In this document: positions 2 through 63,824 of the stretch, one piece after another
How positions within the stretch are numbered: the stretch's first letter is position 1
Layout: each line of letters starts with the position of its first letter
NCBI GenBank assembly: GCA_001599355.1
Contig: BCGQ01000002.1
Location: 695,554 to 759,553, forward strand
Direction: 5' to 3'
Length of the DNA: 64,000 nucleotides
From: Nakazawaea peltata
Lineage: Eukaryota; Ascomycota; Pichiomycetes; Alaninales; Pachysolenaceae
Translations under genes and position numbers: made by a program
Notes under the pieces: model-generated
Database searches by the model: none
What the model was told of the DNA's origin: nothing
Seen by the model: only the letters and a program-made list of their open reading frames with translations

Positions 2-1393
2 TTCGATCCGAATTTAATGGAACTCGACTCCAAATTGAAACAATTACAAACTAAGATCAGACAAGAACATCTTAATGTGGCTGATGATTTATCCATGGAG
101 CTGGAGAAGAAATTGAAATTGGAGAATCATCAGACCCATGGATGGTGTTTCAGATTGACCAGAACCGACAGTGCTGTCTTGAGAGGTAACAAACTGTATA
201 AAGAATTACAAACCGTAAAAGCTGGAGTCTTCTTTACCACTTCCAGATTACAAGACTTGTGTTCGAGAGTTTTAGAGATTCAACTGGAATACGACAAGTT
301 ATCCAGTAGTTTAATTAAAGAAATCGTTGAGATTTCGTCTACATACTCTCCTGTCTTCATCAAGTTGTCCATTTGTATCTCTACATTGGACGTTCTTGTG
401 GCCTTTGCTCATGTCAGTCTGTTTGCTCCTACTCAATATAGTAGACCGGCCAAGATCTATGACATTGACGACTCTTCACGTAAATTAGACCTCCGCAATT
501 CCAGACATCCTATTTTGGAGTATCAAGAAGACATGTCGTTCATTCCAAACGATGTAGAATTCATTAGAGGTGAAAAAGAGTTCCATTTGATTACTGGTCC
601 TAATATGGGAGGTAAATCTACGTATATTAGACAAATTGGAGTTATATCTTTAATGTGTCAAATCGGATGTTTTGTTCCATGTGATGAGGGATCGGAATTA
701 TGTATTTTCGACTCTATTTTACTGAGAGTTGGGGCCTCCGACTCTCAATTGAAAGGTGCCTCTACTTTCATGACTGAAATGTTGGAGATGTCTTCTATTT
801 TACAGCTGCTGACCAGTAATTCTTTAATTATTGTAGATGAATTAGGAAGAGGTACCTCTACTTACGATGGGTTCGGATTAGCTTGGTCTATCAGCGAACA
901 TATTTCGTCGAAAATCCACGCCTTCACCTTATTCCTGACCCATTTCCACGAACTTACAAAGTTAAGTGAGAAAGTATCTACGGTGAGCAATTTACATGTG
1001 GTTGCCCATATCCAGGACTCGAAACAAGACTCAGATCAAGATGAGATCACTCTCTTATATAAAGTAGAACCGGGGATTTCCGACCAGTCATTTGGAGTGC
1101 ATGTTCTGGAAGTTGTGCAATTCCCTCAGAAAATTATCGCCATGCTGAAGAGAAAGGCCACCGAATTGGACGAATTCAGCAGCGAAGGAGACAAAAAGAG
1201 AAGCAAATGCAGCCCGGAGCAGATCCTTCTGGGAAATGAATTGTTGAAACGAATTTTGTCGGAATGGAAACAGTCGGTAGTTGATTTGACCGATCTGCAA
1301 GAGATTATTGCCCAATTCAGACAATTGATCTCGACTAAGTACAAGCAAGAAGTTGCCAACGACCAGTTCCTCCAAGAACTGTTGTCCCTTTAG
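2..1393 (+). CDS. MSH2: MSH2 mismatch-repair ATPase, C-terminal 463 residues (5' end outside window)
   Basis: MutS homologue 2 pairs with Msh3 or Msh6 to recognise mismatches and loops in the nucleus. The frame is open from base 2 (F-D-P-N-L), so the N-terminal mismatch and connector domains lie outside the window. What is visible is the end of the lever/clamp region, then the ABC-type ATPase domain: Walker A TGPNMGGKS near base 595, the signature around GASTFMTEM, Walker B LIIVDELGRG near base 830, and the His-containing THFHEL near base 940. A helical C-terminal dimerisation tail follows. CTG codons at 722, 935, 1106 and 1145 sit where Msh2 proteins have Ala (ILARVGA, FATHFHEL, HVAEVVQFP, MAKRKA), so they should be read as Ala. 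The first in-frame ATG (base 17) is internal, not a start. Confidence 0.96.
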   Translation, partial: FDPNLMELDSKLKQLQTKIRQEHLNVADDLSMELEKKLKLENHQTHGWCFRLTRTDSAVLRGNKLYKELQTVKAGVFFTTSRLQDLCSRVLEIQLEYDKLSSSLIKEIVEISSTYSPVFIKLSICISTLDVLVAFAHVSLFAPTQYSRPAKIYDIDDSSRKLDLRNSRHPILEYQEDMSFIPNDVEFIRGEKEFHLITGPNMGGKSTYIRQIGVISLMCQIGCFVPCDEGSELCIFDSILLRVGASDSQLKGASTFMTEMLEMSSILQLLTSNSLIIVDELGRGTSTYDGFGLAWSISEHISSKIHAFTLFLTHFHELTKLSEKVSTVSNLHVVAHIQDSKQDSDQDEITLLYKVEPGISDQSFGVHVLEVVQFPQKIIAMLKRKATELDEFSSEGDKKRSKCSPEQILLGNELLKRILSEWKQSVVDLTDLQEIIAQFRQLISTKYKQEVANDQFLQELLSL

Positions 1394-2075
1394 CAAGTAT
1401 ATTTTAAGCCAATAAAGAAGTAGATTTGACCCCGCTTATACCTGTAGTGCGTTATTTTTCGTGCCCTGAGTGGTTTGCCCTGAATTTTCTGCCCCTTCAA
1501 GTTAATTTACTTCGTTGGGATTCTATGCGGGTCGGAGTTCGGTCCAATTGAGCTTAACCGAAGAGTTTACTAGTTAATTAAAGTGACTACTTGTAGTGTA
1601 GAGAGCTGTAGAGAGCACATAGGCTCTTAGCAACTGAATTCAATTTCTCATTTATTGCTATAATATTTATGATTTGCTTGCTTTCCAGATCGACTCCTTT
1701 CTTTTAGCACCAATTCCTTCCATAGCCCAAAGTTCCCTCATGCACGCCGCACTGCGTCCCGAAATCCCTCATCTTCCCCCACAAGTAGACTCCCTCCCTG
1801 CAAAAGAATCCACTCTGCCCCGATTTTTGCCCACTCACTGAAAAAACTGGGGTACGTCTACCCGCGCTATCTCTTAAAATCCGGGGAAAAAGACGTGGGG
1901 TCTGACTCCCCCTTTCTTATTGTGGGGAAAACAGCAAATCGCGCCTATCATTTCTTGAAGAGTCCAATAAAATACAAGGGGGAGGATTTGCAGCTAAATC
2001 GATATAAAAGGGACCTTGATCCCCACCATTTTTCACCCACTTCTTCCCTCCATCAATCACTTATATTTCTATAAA
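1394..2075. promoter_or_regulatory. Intergenic region with aldo-keto reductase promoter
   Basis: There is no credible coding frame in these 680 bases. A TATA box (TATAAAAG, 2003-2010) lies about 65 bp before the reductase start. CCCCT/AGGGG-type runs occur between 1850 and 1990 and could be stress-response elements. The leader before the ATG is short and pyrimidine-rich. Confidence 0.6.
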
Positions 2076-3026
2076 ATGTCTGACAAGAAGCAACTTTTGA
2101 CTGACGTTGTCTACACCTTTAACGATGGTAACAAAGTCCCTCTGTATGGTTTGGGTACTTACAATGAGGACTTGAAGGATAACCCAAAGGTTACCCTGGC
2201 TGTTATTGCTGCCATTGAGTCCGGTATGAGACATATCGACACTGCTTGGTTCTACGACACCGAGCCAAATATCGGAGAGCTGCTTAAGTACGTCTTCAAG
2301 AAGGGAATTGTCAAGCGTGAGGATTTGTTCATCACCACCAAGGTTTGGCCAAGTATGTGGGACAAGCTGGAAGAGTCCCTTGATATCTCTTTGAAGGAGA
2401 TGGGAATCGACTATGTCGATTTGTTGTTGCAGCACTGGCCTGTCCTGTTCGAGAGAGGACCTGAAGGTTTGCCAAAGGTCCCATTGGATGAGGAGGGAGA
2501 AGTCAAGCTTCTGAAGGGTGCTGACTACTTGAGCACCTACAAGCAATTGGAGCAAATCAAGAAGAATACCAACAAGGTTAAGTCTATTGGTGTTTCCAAC
2601 TTCCCAATCAGAAGATTGAAGGAATTGTTCAAGGCCTGTGAAACCGTCCCAGTTGTCAACCAAATCGAATGTCACCCAGAGTTCCCACAAACCGAGTTGA
2701 ACGAGTTCTGTAAGGAACACGGTATCATTATGGAGCTGTACTCCCCATTGGGAGGTGGAGGAATTGGTGCCCCATTGTTGAAGAACAAGAGAGCCAACAA
2801 ATTGTTGAAAGAGAAGTACCCAGAATACTCCATCAATGAGCTTTTGTACAGTTACCACATCAAGAGTGGTAGAATTGTCATTCCAAAGTCTTTGAACCCA
2901 GACAGAATTAAGTCTATTAAGTATTTGATTCCATTGACCCCAGAAGATATTGAGTACCTTGAAAGTGGTCCACACACCAGATACAACACTCCACCATGGT
3001 GGGGACATTTAGGTTTCGGTTACTAA
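2076..3026 (+). CDS. NADP(H)-dependent aldo-keto reductase (Gcy1/Ypr1/Ara1-like)
   Basis: A cytosolic (alpha/beta)8-barrel oxidoreductase of 316 residues that reduces sugar or other aldehydes and ketones with NADPH. The AKR catalytic tetrad is visible: Asp and Tyr in HIDTAWFYDTE, Lys in TTKVWP, and His in LLLQHWP. The cofactor-binding IPKS motif lies near the C-terminus. The start is the ATG at 2076 (MSDKKQ); an upstream in-frame TTG at 2016 is not a eukaryotic start. CTG codons at 2142, 2445 and 2736 give VP-A-YGLGT, HWPV-A-F and E-A-YSPLG when read as Ala, which matches the family, whereas Leu does not. Length fits the family (about 310-345). The exact substrate (xylose, arabinose, glycerol or ketones) cannot be told from sequence. 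Confidence 0.9.
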   Translation: MSDKKQLLTDVVYTFNDGNKVPLYGLGTYNEDLKDNPKVTLAVIAAIESGMRHIDTAWFYDTEPNIGELLKYVFKKGIVKREDLFITTKVWPSMWDKLEESLDISLKEMGIDYVDLLLQHWPVLFERGPEGLPKVPLDEEGEVKLLKGADYLSTYKQLEQIKKNTNKVKSIGVSNFPIRRLKELFKACETVPVVNQIECHPEFPQTELNEFCKEHGIIMELYSPLGGGGIGAPLLKNKRANKLLKEKYPEYSINELLYSYHIKSGRIVIPKSLNPDRIKSIKYLIPLTPEDIEYLESGPHTRYNTPPWWGHLGFGY

Positions 3027-4200: not shown

Positions 4201-7200
4201 ATGAGTGACGAGTTGAGTGTGGTTGAGAAAGAGAAAGAAGTGGCGTCACAAGATCAAGTTCCTGAGGGGATGGAGAATGGTGAAGGGACGAGAGTGAATG
4301 GAGATAAAGAGGAAGGGGAAGCAGTTGATCTGAGTAATAATGTGCCGGATGGTGAGGGTGGTGAGGATAGTGCGGCTGTTGAGCCGGAGACAGAGGCCAG
4401 CGGTGAGCCAGAGGCTAGCGCTGAGACAGAGGTTAGTGCTGAGCCGAGCACAGAAGTAAGCGCCGAGCCAAGCACAGAGATTAGCGCTGAGTTGAGTGTG
4501 CCTGCTGAGCCGAGCACAGAAGTCAACACTGAACCGAGCACCGAACCAAGATCAAGCAGAAGCCATTCCTTAGCTTCTCATTCCTCCACCATCAACACCC
4601 ACGCCTCCATTGGTTTCCTCAAAATCGCATTCGAAAATATCACAAAACATACTAAAGAAATGAAACGAAACCCTTCACTTCACAAAAGCTGCTCAGCAGC
4701 TCTCGAGAAATTCGAGTCAGGCATTCTCCCCGAGCCAAAAGATATCTTCGAACCTTTAAGATTGGCCTCTCAATGCTCTAATATCGAGATCAAATTGGAA
4801 GCATTGGAATGTTTGGGCAAATCTTTCAGTTTTAACGTGTTTGACGAGCCAAGTGAAGTCAGTATGGTGAATTTAACTGACTCCGAGTCGACCTCAGTTC
4901 CAAAAGCCAACTTAATCGACGCTGCCATCGAAACTATTGCCGAATGTTTCGACGGAGAAGGCACTAATGAACGCGTCGAATTGCAAGTAGTTAGAGGCTT
5001 AATGGCCGGAGCTTTGAACGGCAATTTACCTGCTCATGGAGGTACTTTATTAAGAGCCGTAAGACAAATCTACAACATCTTCATCTTGTCGTTGTCACCA
5101 GCCAATCAGAACATTGCTCAGGCTTCGTTGACTCAGATCGTCAACGAGGTGTTTGAGAGGATCAATAAAATTGTGCCTCCACCTGCCCTTTCTAAGAGAG
5201 GGTCGATTGGGAGTCGTAGTAAATTTGGGAACGGGGGTGTGTCACCAGAGGTTTCTCATGTCAGTGTGACTGGCACTGGCAATGGCAATGGCAGTCGCAG
5301 TCGCAGTGACAGTGGTGTCACTGCCCCTGCCAACACTGCCACTGTCACCGGAAATGGTGTCACCCCAGTAATCCCCCTCACTTTAAACACCTTCGAAAAC
5401 ACCGACGACGACCAAAGAGTAGAAGAACTGAACCTGGCCCTCGCCGACGACGAAAACATCGCCGTCAAAGACGCCTTCTTACTTTTCAGAGCAATGTCCA
5501 AATTGTCAGTCAAATCTTTAGACCACGAGTCCCTCGATATGCGTTCTCATCCGATCAGATCCAAGTTGCTCTCGTTGCATATCATCTACAACATCCTCAA
5601 ACAACATTTGAACGCTTTCACTCGCACCGACGTGATCATCACCTCGTCCACTTCGTCAGAAGAGACCCGTTTGATCGATGCCGTCAGGCAGTACATTTGT
5701 TTGACTCTCTCCAGGAACTCGGCCTCCTCATTGACGCCGGTTTTCGAGATCTCACTTGAGATCTTCTGGATCATTCTCTCTGAATTGAGGTCCGAATTCA
5801 AAAGAGAGATCCCCGTGTTCTTCACCGAGATCTATTTCCCTGTAGCTGAGATGAAAACTTCCACTGCCCATCAGAAACGGTACTGGCTCTCGATTGTTCA
5901 GAGGATCTGTGCCGATCCAAGGGCCGTCATCGAGATCTATTTGAATTACGACTGTGATTCCTTGATGCCAAACATCACCGAGTCCTTGATCGACTATCTC
6001 ACCAAGTTATCTTTGACTCGTGCCGAGATCACAGCGACCCAAAAGGTCCATTACCGTGACAGTCTCACCAAACCTTTGGCCACGTACGATTTGAACACGT
6101 TACCGCTTCTATCGATCACGAGACTCGGGTCTCATCCACCTGTTTCAGACGCCAATCTGCTCTTCCCGATCGAATACGCCTTGAAAATGAGCTCCATCGA
6201 CTGTATCGTGGCCTTCTTGAGATCGTTGTCGTCGTGGATCGAGAAATCCAGCTCCATTTCCACGCTGCCAATGACTCCGGCTCGTTCTCGTAACGTCTCG
6301 TCCAACAACATCGCTCTGCAAACACCCGAGCTCGACTCGTCGTTCCAATACGAGGACTCATCGACCTCCGAAATCGACGATCCTACGCAATTCGAGACCT
6401 CCAAAATGAAGAAGAAAGCCCTCTTGGAAGGTGTACGTCTGTTCAACTACAAACCTAAGAAAGGAATCGAGAAGTTGATCAAAGATGGGTTCATTGCCGA
6501 CGATTCTCCAGAAAGTATCGCCGAATTCTTGTTGAAGGGCGAGTACGGCATCAACAAAGCCGTCTTGGGTGAGTATTTGGGTGAAGGAGACGACAAAAAC
6601 ATCGCCGTAATGCATCTGTTCGTAGACAAAATGAGTTTCATCGACATGACCTTCGTAGATGCCATGAGAATCTTCTTGCAAAGCTTCAGATTACCTGGAG
6701 AATCACAGAAAATCGACCGGTTCATGTTGAAGTTCGCCGAGAAGTACGTCAACAACAACCCCAACACGTTCGCCAACGCCGACACCGCGTATATCTTGGC
6801 GTACTCGGTGATCATGTTGAACACCGACCAACATTCTCCTCAAGTTAAACGTCGTATGACGATCGACGAGTTCATCAAGAACAACAGTGGGATCGACGAT
6901 GGCCAGGACTTGCCTCAAGAGTACCTTGTGAAAGTGTTTGAAGAGATCCAGAACAACGAGATCAAATTGCACAGCGAGCAGCATCTGGCCTTACTTTCGG
7001 GAGATCCAAGTCTTGTTCCGCAGCAGAGCTCAGGTTTCTTCGGTTCCCGTGATCTCACCAGAGAGCAGTACATGCAAGCGTCGAAGGAGATGTCCAACAA
7101 GACCGAGCAGTTGTTCAGGACGTTGGGACGCATCTCCAAGTCAGACGACGGGTCCAAAGTACGTTTCTTTTCGCTGTCGTTGCATCTGGACCATGTCAAG

Positions 7201-9861
7201 TCCATCTTCGACACCGTCTGGATGTCCATTCTTGCCGGGTTGACCCCGCCTTTCAAAGAGTACAATGATGAAGACACCTGCAAGGTGTGTTTGGAGGGGA
7301 TCAAGCTCTCGATCCACATCGCCTGTATGTTCGAGTTGGAGTACCTGAGGACGTCTTTCATCGGGCTGTTAGTCCAGTTTGCCAACTTGAACAACTTCGA
7401 GGAGATGAGCAGCAAGAATATCGGAGCCATCTTTGCTCTTTTGGAAGTAGCCATCGCCGAGGGTAACGTCTTGAGAGGTTCATGGAAAGATATCTTGATT
7501 TCGATCTCTCAAATCGAGAGAATCCAATTGTTAGCTCAAGGAATCGACTCGTTCGCCGTTCCCGACGTTGCCATTGCTCGTTTGGCCAACAGAACCTCGT
7601 TGGACAGCACCAGAACGACCAACTCTTCGTCTCTGCCATCCCAAGCTTCGCAATCTCATTCGTTCTTCAGCTTTGCCCGTAAACAAACTCCGTCTCAGAT
7701 CGCTTTCGAACACCATCAGAACCAGCAATTGAACCCGGCCGTCATCCCAATGTTGACCTCAACAGACCTCGAAGTGTCGATCGACAAGGTGTTCTCGACC
7801 TCCAACAACTTGAGTGGAGATGCCATCATCGATTTCGTCCAGCTGTTGACCGAGGTAAGCAGCGAGGAGATCGACAGCTCCGGCCAGAGCCAGAGTCCTC
7901 GTATGTTCGCCCTTCAGAAGATGGTGGATGTCTGTTACTACAACATGGACCGTATCAGAGTCCAATGGTCGCTGTTGTGGAGTATCATGGGCAGTCTGTT
8001 CAACGATTTCGGATGCCATAACAACAAGGTGATCGTGCTCTTTGCCTTGGACTCTCTCCGTCAATTGTCGATGAGATTCTTCGAGATCGAAGAGTTGTCT
8101 CATTTCAAGTTCCAGAAAGAGTTCTTGAAACCTTTTGCTCACATCATGAGGAACAACGAGTCGGTAGAGATCCGTGAACGGGTCTTGGAGTCGTTGAATT
8201 ACATGATCCAGGTGAATACTCCGAAGATCAAGAGTGGTTGGATCACCATGTTCGATCTGTTCACTGTAGGTGCCAGAGACGACAGTGAGAAGATCGTCTC
8301 CAAGGTTATGAGCACCGTCAACAGCGTCAACAAGACCCATTTCGACCTCGTCTATACTCAAGGTGGGTTCTTGGACTTGGTGACCTGCTTCACCGAGCTT
8401 CTGAAGAACCAAAGATTCCAAAAAACCTCATTGCATCTGCTTTCGGTATTGAAACATTTGATCCAGAAGATCTCCAAGATGAGTTTCGGCACTCCCGAAG
8501 AACGCAAGTTGACCCAAGACACCGGCGACGACAAAGACGTCTTCTCGGCTCTTTGGTTCCCGGTATTGTACGGTTACCACGACGTGATCATGACCGGAGA
8601 AGATTTGGAAGTGCGCTCCGAGCTGTTGAACTTCATGTTCGACTCGTTGGTCAACTACGGAGGCCATTTCGAAAGCCAGTTTTGGTACACCATTTGCAAC
8701 CAATTGCTCTTCCCGATCTTCGGAGTGTTGAGCAAACGTTGGGAGATCAACCAGTTCAATTCCAACGACGATATGTCCGTTTGGTTGTCGACTACGTTGA
8801 TCCAACTGTTACGCAATATGATCGCTTTGTTCACTCATTATTTCGAGACGTTGAACAACCAACTCGATGGGTACTTGGACTTGCTTGTGTCTTGTATTTG
8901 TCAGGAGAACGACACGATTGCCAGGATCGGAAGAAGCTGTCTTCAGCAGTTGATCAAGCAGAATATGGGACAATTCGAGGCAGATCATTGGGGGAAGATT
9001 GCTGTTGCGTTCGAACAGTTGTTCGATTTGACAACGGCAAGGGAGTTGTTTAAAGCTGATCCTCTGAATGGAAGTTCAGTGGCCGGCAATGGAACTGCTC
9101 TTTCAGACAACGCTCTGGGCACTACTGGTACCCTGTACGAACTCAATGGTGACAGCAGCTTCGACGTAAGTAACAACTCGACCCCATCGACCCCATCCAC
9201 TCCTTCCTCTCCTAAACTCACCAAATCCCTCAAAGAAGGTCAACGTTTACAAAAATCTCGTGAGAAAAGTACCATCGTAGTCAAATGTGTCCTCCAATTG
9301 TTGATGATCGAGACTGTCCTGGAGTTATTCGAAGACGAGTCCTTCTATTCCTTGATCCCATTGGAAAATTTGCTCCAACTTCTGAGTTTATTAGAAAAGA
9401 GTTACAGATTCGCCAAAGAGTTCAACGACGACTACAATTTACGTGTAAGACTTTGGAATGCCGGAGTCATTGAGAGATTGCCAAACTTGTTGAAACAAGA
9501 ATCCTCGTCTTCTCTGGTGTACATCAGCATTATGTTCAGATTGTACTGTGATCCAATGAAGGTCAGCGACGAGAAACTGCGTCTGGAGATCTCTTCCAAA
9601 TTAATTCCTATGTGTATTACGATCATTGAAGGGTATGTTGTGTTGGATGAAGTCCAACAGCAGAGGAATATCACCACATGGAGACCGGTCGTGGTGGAGA
9701 TCTTACAAGGATACGATGTGTTGAATGAGGAGGACTTTATTAAGAATTGTCCAGCTATGTATGATTTGGTATTACAAATATTGGATAAGAGTGCTCCTGT
9801 TGAGTTGAGGGCAGCAATTAAGACGTTTTTATCGAGAGTTGGGGTTGTTTATCTTAAGTAG
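4201..9861 (+). CDS. SEC7: SEC7, large Arf guanine-nucleotide exchange factor of the trans-Golgi
   Basis: An essential peripheral Golgi protein that activates Arf GTPases for vesicle formation (1886 residues; the yeast family is about 1800-2000). The N-terminus (about 1-120) is acidic and contains degenerate S-A-E-P-S-T-E-V repeats. Helical DCB/HUS regions follow, then the catalytic Sec7 domain at about 740-925, and long HEAT-like HDS repeats to the C-terminus. The glutamate finger is Glu834 in FRLPGES. Residues Tyr868, Ser869, Asp876 and Met886 match the four-residue combination known to confer brefeldin A sensitivity on Sec7 domains. CTG at 6616 lies in MH-A-FVD, Ala in relatives. The start ATG at 4201 is the first in frame. 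Low-complexity S/T/G/N inserts occur near 350-400 and 1640-1670. Confidence 0.97.
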   Translation: MSDELSVVEKEKEVASQDQVPEGMENGEGTRVNGDKEEGEAVDLSNNVPDGEGGEDSAAVEPETEASGEPEASAETEVSAEPSTEVSAEPSTEISAELSVPAEPSTEVNTEPSTEPRSSRSHSLASHSSTINTHASIGFLKIAFENITKHTKEMKRNPSLHKSCSAALEKFESGILPEPKDIFEPLRLASQCSNIEIKLEALECLGKSFSFNVFDEPSEVSMVNLTDSESTSVPKANLIDAAIETIAECFDGEGTNERVELQVVRGLMAGALNGNLPAHGGTLLRAVRQIYNIFILSLSPANQNIAQASLTQIVNEVFERINKIVPPPALSKRGSIGSRSKFGNGGVSPEVSHVSVTGTGNGNGSRSRSDSGVTAPANTATVTGNGVTPVIPLTLNTFENTDDDQRVEELNLALADDENIAVKDAFLLFRAMSKLSVKSLDHESLDMRSHPIRSKLLSLHIIYNILKQHLNAFTRTDVIITSSTSSEETRLIDAVRQYICLTLSRNSASSLTPVFEISLEIFWIILSELRSEFKREIPVFFTEIYFPVAEMKTSTAHQKRYWLSIVQRICADPRAVIEIYLNYDCDSLMPNITESLIDYLTKLSLTRAEITATQKVHYRDSLTKPLATYDLNTLPLLSITRLGSHPPVSDANLLFPIEYALKMSSIDCIVAFLRSLSSWIEKSSSISTLPMTPARSRNVSSNNIALQTPELDSSFQYEDSSTSEIDDPTQFETSKMKKKALLEGVRLFNYKPKKGIEKLIKDGFIADDSPESIAEFLLKGEYGINKAVLGEYLGEGDDKNIAVMHLFVDKMSFIDMTFVDAMRIFLQSFRLPGESQKIDRFMLKFAEKYVNNNPNTFANADTAYILAYSVIMLNTDQHSPQVKRRMTIDEFIKNNSGIDDGQDLPQEYLVKVFEEIQNNEIKLHSEQHLALLSGDPSLVPQQSSGFFGSRDLTREQYMQASKEMSNKTEQLFRTLGRISKSDDGSKVRFFSLSLHLDHVKSIFDTVWMSILAGLTPPFKEYNDEDTCKVCLEGIKLSIHIACMFELEYLRTSFIGLLVQFANLNNFEEMSSKNIGAIFALLEVAIAEGNVLRGSWKDILISISQIERIQLLAQGIDSFAVPDVAIARLANRTSLDSTRTTNSSSLPSQASQSHSFFSFARKQTPSQIAFEHHQNQQLNPAVIPMLTSTDLEVSIDKVFSTSNNLSGDAIIDFVQLLTEVSSEEIDSSGQSQSPRMFALQKMVDVCYYNMDRIRVQWSLLWSIMGSLFNDFGCHNNKVIVLFALDSLRQLSMRFFEIEELSHFKFQKEFLKPFAHIMRNNESVEIRERVLESLNYMIQVNTPKIKSGWITMFDLFTVGARDDSEKIVSKVMSTVNSVNKTHFDLVYTQGGFLDLVTCFTELLKNQRFQKTSLHLLSVLKHLIQKISKMSFGTPEERKLTQDTGDDKDVFSALWFPVLYGYHDVIMTGEDLEVRSELLNFMFDSLVNYGGHFESQFWYTICNQLLFPIFGVLSKRWEINQFNSNDDMSVWLSTTLIQLLRNMIALFTHYFETLNNQLDGYLDLLVSCICQENDTIARIGRSCLQQLIKQNMGQFEADHWGKIAVAFEQLFDLTTARELFKADPLNGSSVAGNGTALSDNALGTTGTLYELNGDSSFDVSNNSTPSTPSTPSSPKLTKSLKEGQRLQKSREKSTIVVKCVLQLLMIETVLELFEDESFYSLIPLENLLQLLSLLEKSYRFAKEFNDDYNLRVRLWNAGVIERLPNLLKQESSSSLVYISIMFRLYCDPMKVSDEKLRLEISSKLIPMCITIIEGYVVLDEVQQQRNITTWRPVVVEILQGYDVLNEEDFIKNCPAMYDLVLQILDKSAPVELRAAIKTFLSRVGVVYLK

Positions 9862-12202: not shown

Positions 12203-13609
12203 TTAATCCTTCTTCTTGATCATCAACAAGGTGTAAGCGGCACTCAACTTGTCGGCCCCAATACTCTGCCAATCCTCCTCATCTGTGTCAACTTGTAACA
12301 GGTCTTCATCCGGCGAAGACGACTCTTTCTTGATGCTTGGAACCGAGTTGTTACGTTGCTGAGGAGGAGATGACGAAAGTGGGAGATGCTCATCCGATGA
12401 GATCTTCAAAGAGGGTGTAGGAGTGGATCTCAAGTAAGACTCACTGAAAGAAGAACGAGGTTTCTTCCTGATAATGATCGATTCCGGCACCAGGGCCAGA
12501 TCCAAGACTCCATCAATTGTCTGTCCATCATATTTCAGCTCGTAATAGTCGAAGGAATTCAATCTCGACTTGGAGCTTTGTTGTCTTGGTTTTCTGATCC
12601 CGTGGGACGAAGAGGATCCACGGCGTTGTTGCTGTTGAGGAGCCGATTGCGATTGACCGATCTGCTGCTGTACCAGAGAGAAAGATCTTCTCTGTGGGGT
12701 CCCCAGTTGCTGGTGGTTCAAAGAATTTAGCACTCTTGACGAGAAACGAACACTTGTCAGTGAAGAGTTGTCCATCTTAAACAACTCTCCATCATCTACA
12801 GCAAACTCGTCATCTTCAGCCTCAGAATCCGACGAGTTCAACGAACTAGAGCTCTCGAGTACCAGCTCTTCGAGCGACGACGGATTATAAGGCATTTTCA
12901 AGCTATGAGGATCATTAGCAGGATTGGTGATCGATTGTCTTCTAAGAGGAGGAGAATTCGACACCGAGGCGGTCCTTGTAGGGTTCTGTTGAGACAGAGA
13001 CTGCAGCTGTTGTTGCAGCAGCAGCTGTTGTTTCAACTTATTTTGGTTATACTCTATTATTTCCAGGGAGGAAATCTTCTTAGTGGCCCATTGACCCCAT
13101 CCCACTTTCTCAAATACACAGCCTGTGGCTTCGTCACCCATCTCAAGGGCAGCCATGATCAATCTCCTCTGTTTGGATAACGACAACAAGGCGAAATCGG
13201 GGATCTGGTCCGACAAATGTTTGGTGATGTATCTAATAGGAAGAGGACCCGTCTGCATTAACAATTGGGCCAATCTATTGGGAGTAATCAGAGACGCGGC
13301 GGCAATCCCCTGGGGAGATTGAGTAGATAACAAGGTCTGATGGGTCTTGACCTTGTGTTGCTTCAGTCTTTGTTTCAGCAGTCTCGATTCTTCATCGCTG
13401 TCGTCATCAATGGCGGAAGAATCGAGCGCATTGGACGGTTTGAGTCCCTCGGCGGGTGGGGGCGCGTTCTCATTACGTCCGACCGACGTCACCGCCGATG
13501 GCGGGAATGGAGTGGTCCGCGGAATGTAGTGGTCCAGTTGAGACATCAGAAGCATCTGAGAGTCTTCAGTCCCGTTCTTATAATATGGGTGTTGTTGAGT
13601 GGATGCCAT
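12203..13609 (-). CDS. STB3: STB3, RRPE-binding regulator of ribosome-biogenesis genes
   Basis: Stb3 is a Sin3-interacting nuclear protein that in S. cerevisiae binds the RRPE element and represses ribosome-biogenesis genes when nutrients are poor. The conserved STB3 domain is at about residues 106-180: it begins ITPNRLAQLL, runs through GPLPIRYITKHL and LSKQRRLIMAAL, and ends VFEKVGWGQWA. The rest is low-complexity Q-rich and S-rich sequence, with an acidic C-terminus. The start is the ATG at 13609 (MASTQQ); the in-frame GTG further upstream is not used. Length is 468 residues. Several RRPE-like sites are visible elsewhere in this window. Confidence 0.9.
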   Translation of the reverse strand: MASTQQHPYYKNGTEDSQMLLMSQLDHYIPRTTPFPPSAVTSVGRNENAPPPAEGLKPSNALDSSAIDDDSDEESRLLKQRLKQHKVKTHQTLLSTQSPQGIAAASLITPNRLAQLLMQTGPLPIRYITKHLSDQIPDFALLSLSKQRRLIMAALEMGDEATGCVFEKVGWGQWATKKISSLEIIEYNQNKLKQQLLLQQQLQSLSQQNPTRTASVSNSPPLRRQSITNPANDPHSLKMPYNPSSLEELVLESSSSLNSSDSEAEDDEFAVDDGELFKMDNSSLTSVRFSSRVLNSLNHQQLGTPQRRSFSLVQQQIGQSQSAPQQQQRRGSSSSHGIRKPRQQSSKSRLNSFDYYELKYDGQTIDGVLDLALVPESIIIRKKPRSSFSESYLRSTPTPSLKISSDEHLPLSSSPPQQRNNSVPSIKKESSSPDEDLLQVDTDEEDWQSIGADKLSAAYTLLMIKKKD

Positions 13610-13689
13610 TTGAATTAAATTGAAAAATAAATTCGGGGGCACTTTGGAAAAAAACGGGGGGTGAGTAATTTAAATTAGCTCCGAAGTTT

Positions 13690-14952: not shown

Positions 14953-14984
14953 TTTTCAACCATCTTCCCAACCTTCCGCTGATC

Positions 14985-55700: not shown

Positions 55701-57048
55701 GAGGGACCAACATCATATGTGACAGCAAGATCGTAAACAATGAACTCGAAGAAAAGATATTAGCTGCAGAATTCATACCCTCCGCGGAGAACATAACAAT
55801 GAATGCAACCATGGAAGACATCTGAGACAACGAGACAGCAATTGAAGTCAAAGCCGCACGTAAGAATTGCATACGGCGGATCACAGACATTTCTTTTGAC
55901 CTAATGCCGGAAATGGTCTCGTGGTAAGACTCTTCCCAGGAATAGAACTTAATAATTTTTAAGTTATTCAAAAGTTCCTTCATGTAAGTGACACGAGCAT
56001 CAGTAAAGATAATCAGTTCCTTTCTGAGTGTGAATAAAATTTTAGCAGATGAAGTGATAATCATTAACAGGAGTAAAAATACCCCAACTCCAGCCAAAGA
56101 AGAAACACCAATATTAACAATAAGTAAGGCTATGGAAAGACTTACGGGTAAAGGAAAACAAATAGCATATGGCAAAAACCCAAGCAGTAAATCTATACGA
56201 GCCAAATCTGTGCTCATTATAGAGGTGACTTTACCCAGAGGGAACTTATGCCGACCTTTAGCATTAAGCTTAAGAGACTTTTCCAAGATCAGGCGAGTCA
56301 AGACCAGTTTCACCTTGGCACCTACCATCATGGCGCGGTAGATAAAGTGGTTCATCAACATTCCATCAACCTGAACATTGATAGCAGCACCCACCAGATA
56401 TCCTATTCCTTTGCCGACCAGCGGATGGGCTCCATTGGCCCTCTTGGTTACAAAATTGATTAACAGTTTAGTAAGCAATGGATTTAAAGTATAGGATATA
56501 TCAGCAAAGCTGTTGCATATCACAGCAAAAGAGAATTCCCACTGGAATGTATGCCAAAGAGCCCAGATAACCGAATATTTTGGAAACTCAAATTCATCAT
56601 CTTCCTCGGAATTGTAGGTGCCTTTACTCTTCTTTCGTTCTATAATTTTTGCATGCTCCAGTCGAACAGGGCCGATCTGTTGTTCTAGTTTCTCTTGGAA
56701 TTTCAGATAGTAGTAGTCGATCTTCAATGTGCCATCGAGATACCAAAGATCATTTTGTTGTAATGTTCTCTTATAACCGACTTTCATGACCGGGTGTAAC
56801 CACCAAAAGAAGAAAGCGGATATAAAGCTCGCATCTAACAAACCATAAGGCTTCCTTTCCTCTTCAGAAGGAACTGGAGGCACCGATTTCCCCATGAATG
56901 GAGTAAAGACATGTCTTTGAATCATAAATTGATCATCACTAAGTCTTTCATTATCCTTTGATAAGCCGTTGGAAGACAACAAAATTTGGCTTGCTCCAGC
57001 CTTGGAAGATTCAAGCGCCTTTTTCTCTCCATTCGATTCTGGTGACAT
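52759..57048 (-). CDS. YOR1: YOR1-like ABCC multidrug transporter, copy 2
   Basis: 1429 residues with the same domain order as copy 1: TMD1, NBD1 (GVIGSGKSS at about 588, LSGGQKLR, ILLDDVLSAVD), TMD2, and NBD2 (GRTGAGKSS at about 1197, FSLGERQ, ILILDEATSSVD). The linker before NBD1 is acidic and differs from the other copies (SEEEEEQGVVSDEKDVDSEEE). The N-terminal VPPVPSEEERKPYG is the same family signature. All motifs are intact, so it looks functional. The part of NBD2 between KGTIRKNLDPFNQ and SSVDYETD is identical in protein to copy 1. Start ATG at 57048. Confidence 0.94.
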   Translation of the reverse strand: MSPESNGEKKALESSKAGASQILLSSNGLSKDNERLSDDQFMIQRHVFTPFMGKSVPPVPSEEERKPYGLLDASFISAFFFWWLHPVMKVGYKRTLQQNDLWYLDGTLKIDYYYLKFQEKLEQQIGPVRLEHAKIIERKKSKGTYNSEEDDEFEFPKYSVIWALWHTFQWEFSFAVICNSFADISYTLNPLLTKLLINFVTKRANGAHPLVGKGIGYLVGAAINVQVDGMLMNHFIYRAMMVGAKVKLVLTRLILEKSLKLNAKGRHKFPLGKVTSIMSTDLARIDLLLGFLPYAICFPLPVSLSIALLIVNIGVSSLAGVGVFLLLLMIITSSAKILFTLRKELIIFTDARVTYMKELLNNLKIIKFYSWEESYHETISGIRSKEMSVIRRMQFLRAALTSIAVSLSQMSSMVAFIVMFSAEGMNSAANIFSSSSLFTILLSHMMLVPPTLASGSDAWIGVGRVTLLLQSGEVNAEEQLKISEGVESLIEEGVAVRLKGLSFEWKVFESEEEEEQGVVSDEKDVDSEEEKKILESTMHPEYLEKQVPVVDVEAITSKFSVDASTRVFPGLKRIDLDIKKGEFVVITGVIGSGKSSLLNAMAGFMNKVSGSLTVAGDLLLCGQPWIQNTTVKENILFGRPYDRTKYDQVIHACSLHADLEILPAGDRTEIGERGITLSGGQKLRICLARAVYADPDIILLDDVLSAVDARVGKHIMDECLLGILKTKTRILATHQLSLIGEADKVVFLNGDGSISVGSTQELSSSNIAFRNLMSYNLEANEREEEEEIVEEEFKKLELNTKLSTAANMEDEENKAGQLMTVEERAENSVMFDVYKKYFSMGSGIFGMTLVPTFITVVILTTFCQLFTSVWLSFWSELKFGSRSQSFYMGIYVLFALLTVILAFLEFTLTVYFTNTALKNLNILLVGRLLRLPMLFMDTTPMGRILNRFTKDTDSLDNEISEQLRLFIYPFLNICGVVIMCMIYLPWFAIAVPFLVFLFVAISSMYQLSGREIKRLEAVQRSFLYNNFNETLTGVATIKLYRLEHRFLEKNNILTDKMNELYFITILNQRWLLVHLDWIATTLCLVVGLLSVYGVFNISGASTGLLISYVTQIAGQLSVLIRAMTQVENEMNSVERLCHYLFELEQELPFKISETTPAPQWPLHGAIEFRNVSLAYRSGLPLVLKNLNISVRPGEKIGICGRTGAGKSSIMTALYRISELHDGQIAVDNVDIGTIGLHQLRSKLSIIPQDPVLFKGTIRKNLDPFNQYSDDHLWKSLEKSGLVTDILLAKKESKTSGNGLHKFHLDQEVQDEGSNFSLGERQLIALTRAVVRESKILILDEATSSVDYETDAKIQNTIAKEFSHCTILCIAHRLKTILDYDRILVLDQGAVKEFDTPRNLFAAKDSIFRSMCDRSKIVEKDFDAAQADRN

Positions 57049-57836: not shown

Positions 57837-60800
57837 CTATCCACGAGCCTTTCTGACCCTCTCAGTTTCTGCGGCATCAAAGTCTGCTTCCACAATCTTC
57901 GATTTATCACACATAGAACGGAAGACACTGTCTCTCAGAGCAAACAAGTTACGAGGAGTATCGAATTCTTTAACAGAGCCTTGGTCTAAGACCAAGATTC
58001 TATCGTAATTGAGAATGGTTTTCAATCTGTGAGCGATACAAAGAATAGTGCAATGACCGAACTCTTTGACAATTGTGCTTTGAATCTTCGAATCTGTTTC
58101 GTAATCTACCGAAGAAGTAGCTTCATCTAAAATCAAAATCTTAGATTCCCTTACAACAGCTCTTGTCAAAGCAATTAATTGTCTCTCCCCAAGCGAGAAA
58201 TTAGATCCTTCATCCTCCACTACTTGATTTAAATGGAATTTATGAAGTCCATTCAGGTCTTCTGAGTTTTCTTTCTTTGTCAGCTCGATATCATCGATCA
58301 AACCAGACTTCTGTAAAGATTTCCACAAATGGTCTTCAGAGTATTGTCCGAAAGGATCCAAATTCTTACGGATGGAACCTTTGAACAAGACTGGATCTTG
58401 AGGAATGATAGAAAGCTTAGAACGTAAGTCAGTCAACCCAATTTGACTGATATCAACACCATCAATGAGCATCTGACCACCATCCAACTCACTGAGACGG
58501 TACAAAGCTGTCATAATAGACGATTTACCGGCACCAGTACGTCCACAAATTCCCACTTTCTCACCAGGTTTGACAGAAATATCTAAATTTTTCAATACCA
58601 ATGGTAACCCTGGTCTGTAAGCGAGAGAAACATTGCGGAATTCTATAGCACCGTGCAGTGGCCATTCAGGTGCAGGCTTGGTTTCGGAAATTTCGAACAG
58701 CAGCTCTTGGTCCAACTCAAACAGATAATGACACAATCTCTCGACCGAGTTCATCTCGTTCTCTACTTGAGTCATGGCACGGATCAACATTGACAATTGT
58801 CCGGCTATCAGAATTATATAGGAAAGTAATAAACCAGTTGAAGATGCTGAGATCTCAAAAACACGATAAACACTCAAAAGACCGACGACAATACACATGG
58901 CGGTTGCAATCAAGTCAAGATGAATCAGCAACCATCTCTGATTCAGAATTGTGATGAAGTACAGTTCATTCATCCTATCAGTTAAATGATTGTTCCTATC
59001 TAAGAAACGATTCTCCAGACGGTACAGTTTGATAGTTGAAATTCCACTCAAGGTCTCATGGAAGTTGCTGTAGACAAACGACCGCTGAACAGCCTCCAAA
59101 CGTTTGACCTCACGACCAGACAGCTGGTAGATATTGGCGACAGCAACGAACAGAAAGACCAAGAAAGGCACAGCAATGGCAAACCATGGCAAGTATATAA
59201 CACATAAGATGACAACTCCAGAAATATTCAGGAAATTGTATAAGAACATTCTCAATTGATCACTGATCTCATTGTCAAGAGAGTCGGTGTCTTTTGTGAA
59301 ACGATTCAAGATACGTCCCATTGGTGTAGTATCCATGAACAGCATTGGCAGATGCAACACACGGCCAACCAGCATGATATTCAATTTTTTCAGTGAGGTG
59401 TTTGTAACATATGCGATCAACAAGAATTCTAAGAGGATGAAAATGACTGACAACAGGGTGAACATACCGTAAATCCCCATATAGAAGGATTGTGAGCGTA
59501 CTCCAAATTTGTATTCTGACCAGAACGACAACCAAACATTGGTGAAAAGTTGGAAAAAGGTAGAAAGAATGATCATGAGCAAGAAAATAGGGACAAGAGA
59601 GAGTCCAAATACTCCCGTGCCCATACTGATATATCTCTTATAGACACTGAAAGAGATTTGATTTACGGCACGTTCCTCAACAGTCATTAACACTCCATCG
59701 TCCTCCTCTTCTACATTAGCTACAGTGGTTTGTCTACGAATAAGTTCATACTCCTCCTCCTTGGTTTCCTTACTGTCTTCTTTCTCATCAACATCTTTCG
59801 ACTCCAGGTTATAGGACATCAAATTACGGAAACCCTCATTGCTTGAGGTTAATTCTTGCATAGAGCCTACACTTACACTTCCATCACCGTTAAGGAAGAC
59901 TACTTTATCGGCCTCACCTATTAAAGATAATTGGTGAGTAGCTAAGATACGAGTTTTATCCTTGAGTAAACCCAATAAGCATTCATCCATGATATGTTTT
60001 CCCACTCTTGCATCTACGGCAGAAAGAACATCATCGAGTAAAATGATATCTGGGTCAGCATAGACAGCTCTAGCCAAACAAATTCTCAGTTTCTGTCCTC
60101 CAGATAAAGTAATACCTCTCTCACCAACTTCTGTCCTGTCTCCAGCAGGAAGAACATCGAGATCGGCATGAAGAGAACAAGCGTCAATTACCAGACCGTA
60201 TTTCTTCTTGTCAAAAGGTTTACTGAAAAGAATATTCTCTTTTACGGTGGCATTTTGAATCCATGGCTGACCACAAAGCAAGAGATCACCTGCAATTTTG
60301 AGGGATCCAGATGTTTTGTGCATAAAACCAGCCATGGCATTCAAAAGAGAAGACTTTCCAGAACCAATAAGACCAGTAATGACTACAAATTCACCTTTCT
60401 GGACATCTAAGTCGATACTTTTAAGTCCTGAGAAAGTTCTGGTAGAAGGATCTATAGTGCTAGAAGACGAATAAGTGTCGGTAGTAGCATCAATTGCGGT
60501 TTTGTCGGCAGTCTCGACTGCCAGGGCAGTGGCAGGGTCAGCGCCAGCACTGAAAGCTTTCTCTTCCTCTTCATCAGCAGCTCTCTTCTTCTCCTTATCT
60601 AACTTGTCTTTCTCGTTGTCGTCCAATTCGAATACTTTCCACTCAAAAGACAGATCTTTTAATCTTACAGCTACGCCATCTTTTACTAAGGATTCGACAT
60701 CTTGGTATGCCAGTTCTTGTTCTTCAACACTAACTTCTCCACATTGTAACAATTGAGTGACACGTACAAGACCAATCCAGGCATCGGAACTGGTAGCCAA

Positions 60801-62144
60801 GGTGATCGGGATCATCATCATTTGTTGCAGTAAAATGTTGAAAAAAGAGATGGAAGAGAAGATATCTGCGGCAGATCTCAGACCTTTCAAAGCAAACATT
60901 ACAAGGAAAGCAACCATGGAGGATATTTGTGATAAGGTGACTGCCAAAGAGACAATGATTGCACGCATATACAGCATATTACGGATGAAATACATTTCTT
61001 TCTGTCTGGTCTCGGCGACCGTCTTATCATATGGCTTTTCCCAAGAGTAGAACTTAATGACTTTTAAATTGTTCAACAATTCTTTCATATAAGCAACACG
61101 AGCATCAGTGAAGACAATCAGTTGGGTTCTGAATTTGAATAAAAATTTGGCAGAAACTCCAATGACAACTAACAGGGCCAAGAAGACACCGATACCTGCC
61201 AAAGAGGAAACTCCAATGTTAACTACAAGCAAAGCTATAGATATGGCTACAGGGACCGGGAAACAAAGACCAAACGCTAAGAAACCGATCAGGAAATCGA
61301 TACGAGCCAAATCTGTACTCATAATCGATGTTATCTTTCCTTGAGGGAACTTGTGATGGCCTTTAGCGTTAAGTTTAAGAGATTTTTCTAAGATCAGACG
61401 GGTCAATACCAGCTTTGTTTTGGCTCCTACCATCATGGATCTGAATAAATAGTGATTAATTAACATTCCATCGGCTTGAACCATGAAGGCAGTACCCAAC
61501 AGATAGCCTATACCTTTGGCGATATTCTGATTGACACCTATCTCCAGATTGGAGACGAAATTGATTAACAGTTTGGTAAGTAAAGGATTTAAGGTAAAAG
61601 AGACATCAGCTAAGGTATTACACATAATTGCCATAGAGTATTCCCACAGAAATGTATGCCAAAGAGCCCATACAACGGAATATTTGGGGTACTCAAGCTC
61701 GTCTTCCTCGGAATCGTAGGTACCTTCCAGCTTCAATTTTTCAACGAGCTTATCATGCAGCAGACGAGCAGGAGCCACTTGCCGCTCCAAATTTGTCTGG
61801 AATTTCAGATAATAATGATCAATGGCCAATTGTCCATCGAGATACCACAAATCTTCCGGCTGTAATGTTCTCTTGTAGCCCACTTTCATTATCGGATGTA
61901 ACCACCAGAAAAAGAAAGAGGACATGAGACCAGCTCTATATTGGGGGTGTGGTTTTCTTTCGTCTTCAGTGGGGAGAGGGGGCACAGATTTCCCCATGAA
62001 CGGTGTAAGCAAACGTTTTTGTACCATTAAATCAGCCTGTGACAGCCTTTCCTCGTCCTTTACTAGGACACCGGAAGGCTGTTGGATATCTGAACCAGTC
62101 AGCAGCGTACCAGATTTTTCTTCAGTTAGTTGCGCAGATGGCAT
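57837..62144 (-). CDS. YOR1: YOR1-like ABCC multidrug transporter, copy 3
   Basis: 1435 residues, the first copy in transcription order. Same architecture: KSVPPLPTEDERKPH opening, TMD1, and a linker with a K/E-rich then A/T-rich segment (DNEKDKLDKEKKRAADEEEE). NBD1 has GLIGSGKSS (about 590), LSGGQKLR and ILLDDVLSAVD; TMD2 follows; NBD2 has GRTGAGKSS (about 1203), FSLGERQ and ILILDEATSSVD. In NBD2 it differs from copies 1 and 2 (FGQYSEDHLWKSLQKSGLIDDIEL), so it did not take part in their recent sequence exchange there. Start ATG at 62144. Confidence 0.94.
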   Translation of the reverse strand: MPSAQLTEEKSGTLLTGSDIQQPSGVLVKDEERLSQADLMVQKRLLTPFMGKSVPPLPTEDERKPHPQYRAGLMSSFFFWWLHPIMKVGYKRTLQPEDLWYLDGQLAIDHYYLKFQTNLERQVAPARLLHDKLVEKLKLEGTYDSEEDELEYPKYSVVWALWHTFLWEYSMAIMCNTLADVSFTLNPLLTKLLINFVSNLEIGVNQNIAKGIGYLLGTAFMVQADGMLINHYLFRSMMVGAKTKLVLTRLILEKSLKLNAKGHHKFPQGKITSIMSTDLARIDFLIGFLAFGLCFPVPVAISIALLVVNIGVSSLAGIGVFLALLVVIGVSAKFLFKFRTQLIVFTDARVAYMKELLNNLKVIKFYSWEKPYDKTVAETRQKEMYFIRNMLYMRAIIVSLAVTLSQISSMVAFLVMFALKGLRSAADIFSSISFFNILLQQMMMIPITLATSSDAWIGLVRVTQLLQCGEVSVEEQELAYQDVESLVKDGVAVRLKDLSFEWKVFELDDNEKDKLDKEKKRAADEEEEKAFSAGADPATALAVETADKTAIDATTDTYSSSSTIDPSTRTFSGLKSIDLDVQKGEFVVITGLIGSGKSSLLNAMAGFMHKTSGSLKIAGDLLLCGQPWIQNATVKENILFSKPFDKKKYGLVIDACSLHADLDVLPAGDRTEVGERGITLSGGQKLRICLARAVYADPDIILLDDVLSAVDARVGKHIMDECLLGLLKDKTRILATHQLSLIGEADKVVFLNGDGSVSVGSMQELTSSNEGFRNLMSYNLESKDVDEKEDSKETKEEEYELIRRQTTVANVEEEDDGVLMTVEERAVNQISFSVYKRYISMGTGVFGLSLVPIFLLMIILSTFFQLFTNVWLSFWSEYKFGVRSQSFYMGIYGMFTLLSVIFILLEFLLIAYVTNTSLKKLNIMLVGRVLHLPMLFMDTTPMGRILNRFTKDTDSLDNEISDQLRMFLYNFLNISGVVILCVIYLPWFAIAVPFLVFLFVAVANIYQLSGREVKRLEAVQRSFVYSNFHETLSGISTIKLYRLENRFLDRNNHLTDRMNELYFITILNQRWLLIHLDLIATAMCIVVGLLSVYRVFEISASSTGLLLSYIILIAGQLSMLIRAMTQVENEMNSVERLCHYLFELDQELLFEISETKPAPEWPLHGAIEFRNVSLAYRPGLPLVLKNLDISVKPGEKVGICGRTGAGKSSIMTALYRLSELDGGQMLIDGVDISQIGLTDLRSKLSIIPQDPVLFKGSIRKNLDPFGQYSEDHLWKSLQKSGLIDDIELTKKENSEDLNGLHKFHLNQVVEDEGSNFSLGERQLIALTRAVVRESKILILDEATSSVDYETDSKIQSTIVKEFGHCTILCIAHRLKTILNYDRILVLDQGSVKEFDTPRNLFALRDSVFRSMCDKSKIVEADFDAAETERVRKARG

Positions 62145-63824
62145 CGGGCGTTGTTATTAGATCTTACGGTGCCAAGAAAGGTTCTCATCGACTCTATTTA
62201 TATCAGTAAGGCTGAAAAATTCTTGATAGAAGGGGAGCCGCACGGACCTGCAGGTTCCTCGAAGTACGAAGGAAAAATAGCCCAGGATTTTGGTTAGCGA
62301 GAAATGCGAAGAAGGTATTTAGTATGGGATCAGCTGCAGAGACGTTGAGGATGCCCAGGATAACCAGTGGGAGAACCGAGAAAGTTGCTGTTTCGCCACC
62401 GCCACCCTCGATAGTATGGCAATTGAGGATGATTGGGGGTGATGATTGGGGGTGAGTCAGAGCCTCGCGAGGCTCCGGCCGATAAGGAAAAAATAATTAT
62501 AATGCGAGGGATGCTACGGGCGAGATGCCGGGCAAGATGGCGGAAAAATATGGCAGATAAGATGAGATGAGGAAACTGATGGTGAGGCCGTTGAACTGAT
62601 GAGGTGTTTAGGTTGGCCTAGATGAAATTGACTAGTTTTAGCATCTATGCGATCATATACGTTGTTATGTAGGATGGCATTAAATGTGGGTTCTTAAGAA
62701 AGGCGGAGATGAGGATTCTCGAGTGGCGTCAGTAAGGAAAAGTAAATGCGAATACGATAAGGTGTGCGACAGAGGGGAAGTTCTATAGCAATCGGAATCA
62801 TAGAGGGGATGAATTTATTTAAATCGATCAAGTGAATGACACAGAGGTGTATTGGGTGGATACTTTTGGTCGATCTTTTTACGTAGTTGAAGATCTGTTT
62901 ACATATCATGCCAACCTAAGAAGGACAAACAACTAGTGTGAGTCTGCACCGATGAGATCTTAACTTCCATATTAGGCAATAATGCGTTACTATATGCACT
63001 ACCATAATTGTAATCCGAAATGCGACATATCATTTGTATTTTGCTCTGATAGATCAAATTCAAAAAACATTTAAAGTCGTGCACATTCACACAATTGCCA
63101 TTTTAATTCTATTTACTAAATTAATACTTTGCTCACATCAACCAAATTCAAATTTTATCTAAAAGTCGTGTAAATACACACAATTACCGTTTATAGTTCT
63201 ATTTATAAATCAATGCTTTGCTCATTACTCTGCTCATGTCTATAAATTGCTACACGATTAGGTCTACTAATCCTGTTTCTAATAAATTGCTATCTCATTA
63301 GGTCCACCGCATCCCACCCTTTACGATCAACAGAACAGTCCTAATTAACCCACGAGTTAAAATCCCAATAAACTTCAATTCAACCCCCCGTTTAGTACCG
63401 CCCAATAATGATTTCCCACCCAACCCCGTCGGTACTCCTCCCGTCGGGTTTCCCATCGTGCTGCATCACCCCCCAGCCGGATTCCACTTCAGTCCTATTT
63501 TGCTGCGCTACTTTTGGCAGCTCTGTCCAAAAATAGTAAAAGACACACATGGCCTTCCGACGGCGCGCGCCGGAAATTCCATTTGCCTTATTCTGCTCAA
63601 ACCTTATCGCCTTGCATTTTGACCGGATTAAGCAGGCCTCGATAAGAGTGTGTAAGTAGGAGATGAGGGGGTGGGATTCGATATAAATTGGTGGGAGAAT
63701 CCCCTCCTGAAATGATCTGTTACTTCTCTCATCAACAGAGTTATTTCAGTTTGTTTCCATTACTATATAGCTTATAGTTTCTTATAGATACCATCTCTGA
63801 TTTCTACCTACATTACAATTGAAG
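62145..63824. promoter_or_regulatory. 1.7-kb intergenic region: copy-3 promoter, an 88-bp tandem duplication and the next gene's promoter
   Basis: No gene is supported. Two diverged units with a period of about 88 bp begin at CAAATTCAAA (63055 and 63143); each contains AAGTCGTG, ACACAATT and TTTGCTCA. A GC palindrome CGGCGCGCGCCG is at 63561-63572 and a CCCGTCGG motif occurs twice near 63425-63450. TATAAATT at 63682-63689 sits 140 bp before the next ATG, followed by a pyrimidine-rich leader. Confidence 0.5.

Follow-up and report, generated by a model that had tools for sequence, protein, structure and literature searches.

The translation of the codon CUG as alanine was discovered in the yeast Pachysolen tannophilus in 2016, and the alanine clade described in the available text of PMC5951914, in which the codes of 18 yeasts were determined by mass spectrometry, also includes Nakazawaea and Peterozyma. 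Taxonomically, the three genera are placed in one order, the Alaninales, and in one family. The present study deals with a stretch of yeast nuclear DNA on contig BCGQ01000002.1 (hereafter the window, i.e. the whole analysed stretch of 64,000 bases with 41.8% GC), for which an initial annotation had proposed that CUG codes for alanine. The analysis of the encoded proteins supports this proposal and indicates that nuclear CUG most probably specifies alanine in the source yeast, corresponding to translation table 26 of the National Center for Biotechnology Information (NCBI), with an estimated probability of about 0.96. The code itself is not new, as it is known from Pachysolen, Nakazawaea and Peterozyma. 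More weight than to its confirmation is given here to the abundant use of CUG and to the seemingly separate evolution of two sets of alanine codons.

Assignment of CUG in the window proteins

Seven window proteins were compared with homologues of solved structure, namely MSH2, the aldo-keto reductase (AKR), SEC7, the sphingosine kinase (LCB4), the spastin-like ATPase (SAP1), the NSUN2-like methyltransferase (NCL1) and one ABC transporter (ABC3). The residue facing each codon was tabulated, and all 20 residues were scored with BLOSUM62 and with an empirical matrix. Using one homologue per gene, the 79 CTG sites most commonly faced alanine (24), followed by valine (8), glutamate (7), leucine (6) and threonine (5). 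With BLOSUM62, alanine reached +31.0 bits, which is 26 bits ahead of the runner-up serine (+5.0), while threonine (−3.0), valine (−13.0), glutamine (−19.5) and leucine (−34.0) stayed below zero. The empirical matrix gave +29.9 for alanine, −2.0 for serine and −79.0 for leucine at the same sites, and the inclusion of all targets (95 CTG sites) resulted in +42.0 for alanine and +6.0 for serine. The queries of MSH2, LCB4, SAP1 and NCL1 had CTG already read as alanine, which might have caused a slight lean towards this residue; for the 3 genes in which the query carried X in place of CTG (42 sites), alanine was still top with +18.5 compared to +2.0 for valine. The targets comprised one of four near-identical copies of human MSH2, one of two near-identical MRP4 copies, all three AKR and both SEC7 homologues. 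Alignment lines at query positions 135-409 of SEC7, 465-472 of ABC3 and 421-425 and 644-653 of NCL1, all free of CTG, were omitted, and the SEC7 and ABC3 alignments were counted in part, without their final stretches.

The same scoring served as control for the other sense codons, which appear to be standard. Among the 53 non-CTG codons with at least 10 sites, the expected residue was returned for 52 with BLOSUM62, the sole miss being ACG (16 sites), and for 50 with the empirical matrix, which missed ACG, ATG and TGG, the latter two having no sister codon to learn from. Collectively, CTG sites match the alanine of homologues as GCN codons do, and not their leucine, serine or glutamine. This was also seen at conserved flanks (five residues on each side, at least 8 of them aligned and at least 50% identical, with CTG in the flanks counted as alanine), where alanine was faced by CTG at 14 of 25 and by GCN at 41 of 73 sites, in both cases 56%. 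In contrast, leucine was faced by CTG at 2/25 sites but by the five other leucine codons at 91/125, and serine by CTG at 2/25 but by TCN and AGY codons at 51/119. These leucine counts are the ones that bear on the earlier statement that no CTG stands at an invariant leucine.

Furthermore, Pfam profiles were scored with CTG read as alanine (table 26), leucine (table 1) or serine (table 12), and in three proteins also as glutamine. The sum covers 30 domains in 15 of the 23 reading frames used, with SEC7 taken without its first 100 codons and ABC3 over 1,000 of its 1,435 residues. Overlapping or weak families were excluded from the sum, and the frames at 12203, 25346, 27514, 36853, 38839 and 42499 as well as ABC1 and ABC2 stood outside the three-code scan. 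Alanine gained 100.3 bits over leucine (22 domains up, 2 ties, 6 down) and 50.1 bits over serine (19 up, 3 ties, 8 down), while glutamine remained 42.5 bits below alanine (5 domains, 3 proteins). The strongest support for alanine came from MutS_V, DnaJ-X and Rft-1. The proposed meaning of CUG is thus the best of 20 residues against homologues as well as the best Pfam reading when compared with leucine and serine and, in the three proteins, with glutamine.

The 23 reading frames contain 15,010 sense codons and 322 CTG. They are given with coordinates, strand and number of CTG, in some cases followed by Pfam bit scores for the different readings of CTG.

2..1393, forward strand: MSH2 (3' part of the gene), 13 CTG; MutS_V 265.0 with alanine, 247.8 with leucine, 257.5 with serine
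2076..3026, forward strand: aldo-keto reductase, whose closest homologue of solved structure is the D-arabinose dehydrogenase heavy chain, 7 CTG; 130.6 alanine, 123.1 leucine, 124.0 serine
4201..9861, forward strand: SEC7-type Arf exchange factor, 30 CTG
12203..13609, reverse strand: Stb3-like protein, 20 CTG
15331..16167, reverse strand: syntaxin (SSO-like), 9 CTG; by itself no preference for alanine
16991..17995, reverse strand: inositol polyphosphate kinase, 10 CTG; IPK 155.8 alanine, 147.8 leucine, 154.6 serine
18299..20284, reverse strand: GTPase, which we take to be eRF3/SUP35-like, 7 CTG
20612..21694, reverse strand: sphingoid long-chain base kinase (LCB4/SPHK1-like), 10 CTG
23451..24392, reverse strand: tRNA m1G methyltransferase, presumably Trm10-like, 5 CTG; 100.5 alanine, 96.6 leucine, 98.5 serine
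25346..27280, forward strand: HSP70, 65 GCN alanine codons, 0 CTG
27514..29454, forward strand: long open frame with no Pfam match, 7 CTG
30028..31638, reverse strand: RFT1, 16 CTG; Rft-1 461.6 alanine, 451.8 leucine, 455.7 serine, 445.0 glutamine
32824..34950, forward strand: AAA ATPase, spastin-like, 12 CTG
35236..36528, reverse strand: CAJ1-like J protein, 7 CTG; DnaJ-X 201.1 alanine, 188.9 leucine, 196.1 serine, 192.1 glutamine
36853..38700, reverse strand: Ofd1-type 2-oxoglutarate (2OG) oxygenase, 4 CTG
38839..39936, reverse strand: protein with SHNi-TPR, presumably histone chaperone-like, 12 CTG
40885..42060, forward strand: septin, taken to begin at the earliest ATG in frame, 5 CTG (8 in the open frame from 40477)
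42499..43365, forward strand: TMEM33/Pom33 family protein, 12 CTG among its 18 alanine codons
43759..44766, forward strand: PQ-loop protein, 6 CTG; PQ-loop 133.2 alanine, 134.1 leucine, 128.0 serine
45407..47458, forward strand: NCL1/NSUN2-like RNA methyltransferase, 7 CTG
47787..52067, reverse strand: ABC1, first of three tandem ABCC-type transporters (47787-62144), which we assume to be Yor1-like, 42 CTG
52759..57048, reverse strand: ABC2, second ABCC-type transporter, 35 CTG
57837..62144, reverse strand: ABC3, third ABCC-type transporter, 46 CTG

Some gene borders deserve a comment. The septin domain match improves when the part upstream of the ATG at 40885 is included (371.3 vs 361.6 bits, frame 40477-42060, forward strand), and the true start probably lies upstream and is spliced. 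An open frame of 260 codons at 11165-11947 (forward strand), which presumably resembles Stm1, has no Pfam match and is seemingly without its first residues; hence, it may be exon 2 of a gene with a short exon 1. A short glutamine-rich open frame with a cysteine-rich tail was found at 22200-22600 (reverse strand), which the initial annotation called CYSTM-like.

The codons cited in the initial annotation, at positions 722, 935, 1106, 1145, 2142, 2445, 2736, 6616, 15580, 15676, 20906, 22376, 36370, 46094, 46388 and 46391, are all CTG (CAG on the forward strand for the reverse-strand genes) and all 16 are in frame with their genes, where the frame of 22376 is simply the open one with the cysteine-rich end and not a gene model. 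The claim that they occupy alanine positions across each family holds in bulk. It also holds for the MSH2 sites at 722, 935, 1106 and 1145, at all four of which human MSH2 has alanine, for the AKR sites at 2736 (alanine in 3/3 homologues) and 2142 (alanine, serine and alanine), and for the SEC7 site at 6616 (alanine in 2/2 homologues). The J domain with the CTG at 36370 scores 95.6 bits with alanine, 91.6 with leucine and 91.9 with serine.

Taken singly, the claim that the cited codons occupy alanine positions is not supported at 2445 in AKR, where the homologues have cysteine, arginine and alanine, at 20906 in LCB4, where human SPHK1 has methionine, and in NCL1, where 46094 faces proline, 46388 serine and 46391 leucine. 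Several observations weigh against the alanine assignment. By gene (BLOSUM62), alanine is top in MSH2, AKR and ABC3, but tied with threonine in SEC7 and with glutamate in SAP1, while LCB4 alone favours cysteine or methionine (cysteine by BLOSUM62) and NCL1 alone glutamate. Leucine is preferred by the Pfam domains Syntaxin (by 4.1 bits), Pre-PUA (1.7), DCB (1.3) and PQ-loop (0.9), and serine by Vps4_C (1.8); the Syntaxin match (residues 21-165), which spans one of the CTG codons at 15580 and 15676, reaches 27.9 bits with leucine, 23.8 with alanine and 21.7 with serine. Among the excluded weak families, AAA_5, RuvB_N, AAA_15 and Polysacc_synt lean to leucine and AAA_23 to serine, whereas GTP_EFTU_D3 and AAA_22 lean to alanine. 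Finally, no tRNA gene, and thus no decoding tRNA, was found within the 64-kb window, neither by ARAGORN nor by Rfam at gathering scores. The code is therefore judged from the proteins, from which an alanine tRNA with the anticodon CAG is presumed. In analogy to the work on the alanine clade (PMC5951914), the ancestral tRNA-Leu(CAG) might have been lost and CUG might be decoded by a tRNA-Ala with the anticodon mutated to CAG, which the alanyl-tRNA synthetase could charge because this enzyme requires no particular anticodon bases.

With regard to other explanations, it is very unlikely that CUG is ambiguous, i.e. translated mostly as alanine but to some extent as leucine, serine or glutamine via competing or mischarged tRNAs. 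Ascoidea and Saccharomycopsis provide known examples of competing tRNAs (PMC8629427), and among the ABC paralogues CTG pairs with glutamine, glutamate, leucine and methionine. However, CTG behaves like GCN at the conserved flanks, distant homologues show no excess of glutamine at CTG sites (3/79 vs 4/172 for GCN), and the glutamine partners are explicable by the single-base distance between CTG and CAG. The paralogues had also prompted glutamine as the sole meaning of CUG, because 18 of 72 CTG partner pairs involve glutamine, more than alanine codons, which at first sight speaks against alanine; this candidate was ruled out by its Pfam deficit, its negative score in the homologue test and the missing enrichment in distant homologues. 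An even lower probability is attributed to table 12, the serine reading of CUG that is found in the Serinales and Ascoideales. Serine is the second-best residue and 8 of the 30 Pfam domains score slightly higher with it, by no more than 1.8 bits, but it falls clearly behind alanine in the Pfam sum and in the 20-way test, and CTG rarely faces serine at conserved flanks. Similarly improbable is a CUG-alanine lineage outside the known clade, which would represent a fourth reassignment. A single nuclear CUG-alanine clade is named in the available texts of PMC5951914 and PMC11540330, the CUG codes predicted in the Codetta screen agreed with the known clades in 453 out of 462 yeast species (PMC8629427), and the GC content of the window differs little from that of Nakazawaea ambrosiae (42.3%), a weak hint. 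Since the alanine clade is the only one of its kind named in the literature surveyed (PMC5951914, available text), membership in the Alaninales is most likely, as the parsimonious placement from the code alone. An ordinary leucine codon with alanine positions arising by chance can practically be dismissed, because the gains of Syntaxin and five other of the 30 Pfam domains with leucine stand against the overall Pfam sum, the conserved flanks and a leucine partner in just 8 of the 72 differing CTG pairs among the ABC paralogues.

Abundance and probable avoidance of CUG

In the 23 reading frames, CTG makes up 0.0215 of the codons, a value valid for one window and not a genome average, and 322 of the 1,140 alanine codons (28%), compared with only 3% for GCG. 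Its frequency exceeds by a factor of 1.79 the value predicted from position-specific base composition, which rules out for the window genes that CUG is a rare leftover codon. The HSP70 gene contains no CTG among its alanine codons, where 18.4 would be expected (0 CTG vs 65 GCN; Fisher p = 2.6e-10). Its alanine codons are GCT and GCC only and TTG provides 94% of its leucine codons, which indicates strong codon selection. HSP70 proteins are highly expressed. Because CTG is absent from a gene that uses only GCT and GCC for alanine, CUG is likely a non-optimal codon that would be avoided under high expression. The codon statistics hence suggest that CUG could be a well-used alanine codon in most window genes and yet non-optimal, being avoided by the HSP70 gene.

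The leucine codon CTA is depleted in the 23 reading frames, with 26 of 1,445 leucine codons or 0.14 of the expectation. A likewise depletion of CTA/CUA has been reported for recoded serine clades in a study that excluded five alanine-clade species (PMC6701816, available text). For CUG, mean frequencies of 0.003 to 0.006 were given for three GAL genes of recoded species (PMC8084343, available text).

The assignment is also of practical relevance for annotation. The use of table 1 or 12 would make about 2% of the residues wrong in the window genes, some of them at sites that are alanine in human MSH2 as well. The initial warning that databases applying these tables mistranslate such proteins requires one amendment, as NCBI already offers table 26 for CUG-alanine. 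For annotators, the window represents a confirmed known exception for which table 26 should be used. In this regard, the genome paper on Nakazawaea ambrosiae applied AUGUSTUS with the Saccharomyces cerevisiae model, and its main text does not contain the terms CUG or genetic code (PMC10106607); the predicted proteins of this species may carry leucine at CUG sites.

Two alanine codon sets in the tandem transporters

The three tandem ABCC-type transporters share about 72% mutual identity outside CTG columns and contain 123 CTG in all. Among 70 ungapped columns consisting of alanine codons only, 26 are all-CTG, 43 all-GCN and 1 is mixed, whereas 49.5 mixed columns would be expected under free exchange. 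Within the GCN block the exchange is free, with 17 of 43 columns mixed between GCR and GCY (16.9 expected), while the serine codon sets TCN and AGY are mixed in 0 of 60 columns (8.6 expected). An origin of the all-CTG columns by gene conversion was rejected, because fourfold sites within 15 codons of these 26 columns differ by 49.6%, similar to those around the 43 all-GCN columns (47.0%) and to the overall value (52.6%). Fourfold sites differ between the copies by 47 to 56%; hence, these have not been freshly converted.

The spectra of replacements differ between the two codon sets as well. In variable columns, exchange with glutamine was found at 13/36 CTG compared with 2/94 GCN columns (p = 6e-7), exchange with glutamine or glutamate at 18/36 compared with 9/94, and exchange with serine, threonine or glycine at 6/36 compared with 59/94 (p = 3.5e-6). 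Ten of the 18 glutamine partners of CTG are CAG, which is one base away from CTG, while CAG has a share of 42/135 in these genes (p = 0.027). It might be possible that CTG-coded and GCN-coded alanine hardly interchange because every GCN codon is more than one base away from CTG. In this gene trio, CTG-coded alanine would then be replaced chiefly by glutamine and glutamate via CAG, and GCN-coded alanine by serine, threonine, valine and glycine. The new code may thus have given CUG-coded alanine new near neighbours, which is the simplest reading of the substitution spectra. In more general terms, alanine could be split into two mutationally isolated codon sets, with CUG as a major (28%) and position-frozen one, and the different routes (from CUG to glutamine or glutamate, perhaps also to leucine or methionine; from GCN to serine, threonine, glycine or valine) would mean that the code measurably channels protein evolution; we regard the chances for and against this view as evenly balanced. 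Leucine may be split too, into TTR and CTH, with the CTG bridge lost and CTA nearly unused.

Some results speak against separate routes. Codon blocks that are connected by one step also look frozen, as 5/47 columns are mixed for arginine AGR/CGN (35.2 expected) and 12/106 for leucine TTR/CTH (68.6 expected), so the free-exchange yardstick is generous and the freeze is partly general. The excess of leucine or methionine alone is not significant (8/36 CTG vs 8/94 GCN columns, p = 0.069). Moreover, one-step codon pairs account for 24/72 CTG and 53/188 GCN pairs, and many partners are further away. The evidence comes from one gene trio and post-hoc tests, in which the CTG and GCN site classes may differ in exposure. 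A literature search that did not extend to the original papers of 2016 or to any supplement found no report of a separate evolution of CTG-coded and GCN-coded alanine. If true, the order would represent a natural experiment in which the influence of code layout on protein change can be followed, a relation that is currently being explored in vitro with artificial codes (PMC13363220, available text).

Relation to known genetic codes

The window agrees with the CUG-alanine code of the Alaninales (table 26) in the meaning of CUG and in the standard meaning of the other testable codons (52/53), and differs in that it is known from proteins only, with the tRNA not seen. In Pachysolen, no CUG was found at leucine or serine positions of at least 90% conservation (PMC4986446, available text). 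For the recoded clades, CUG has been described as relatively rare and located mostly at poorly aligned sites (PMC5951914, available text), whereas in the window it represents 2.1% of all codons and 28% of the alanine codons, exceeds the expectation from base composition and is present at conserved alanine positions.

The CUG-serine codes of the Serinales and Ascoideales (table 12) share with the window the reassigned codon and the depletion of CUA. They differ in the residue, which is alanine in the window by 50.1 bits over the 30 Pfam domains, and in the usage, since an avoidance of the reassigned codon is described for these orders (PMC11540330, available text) while CTG in the window is above the composition expectation. 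The closest parallel for the two alanine codon sets is found in the standard code itself, where serine is encoded by TCN and AGY. In both cases, no single synonymous step connects the two sets, and mixed columns are nearly absent from the transporter trio (0/60 for serine, 1/70 for alanine); however, the split of alanine is new and arrived with the code change.

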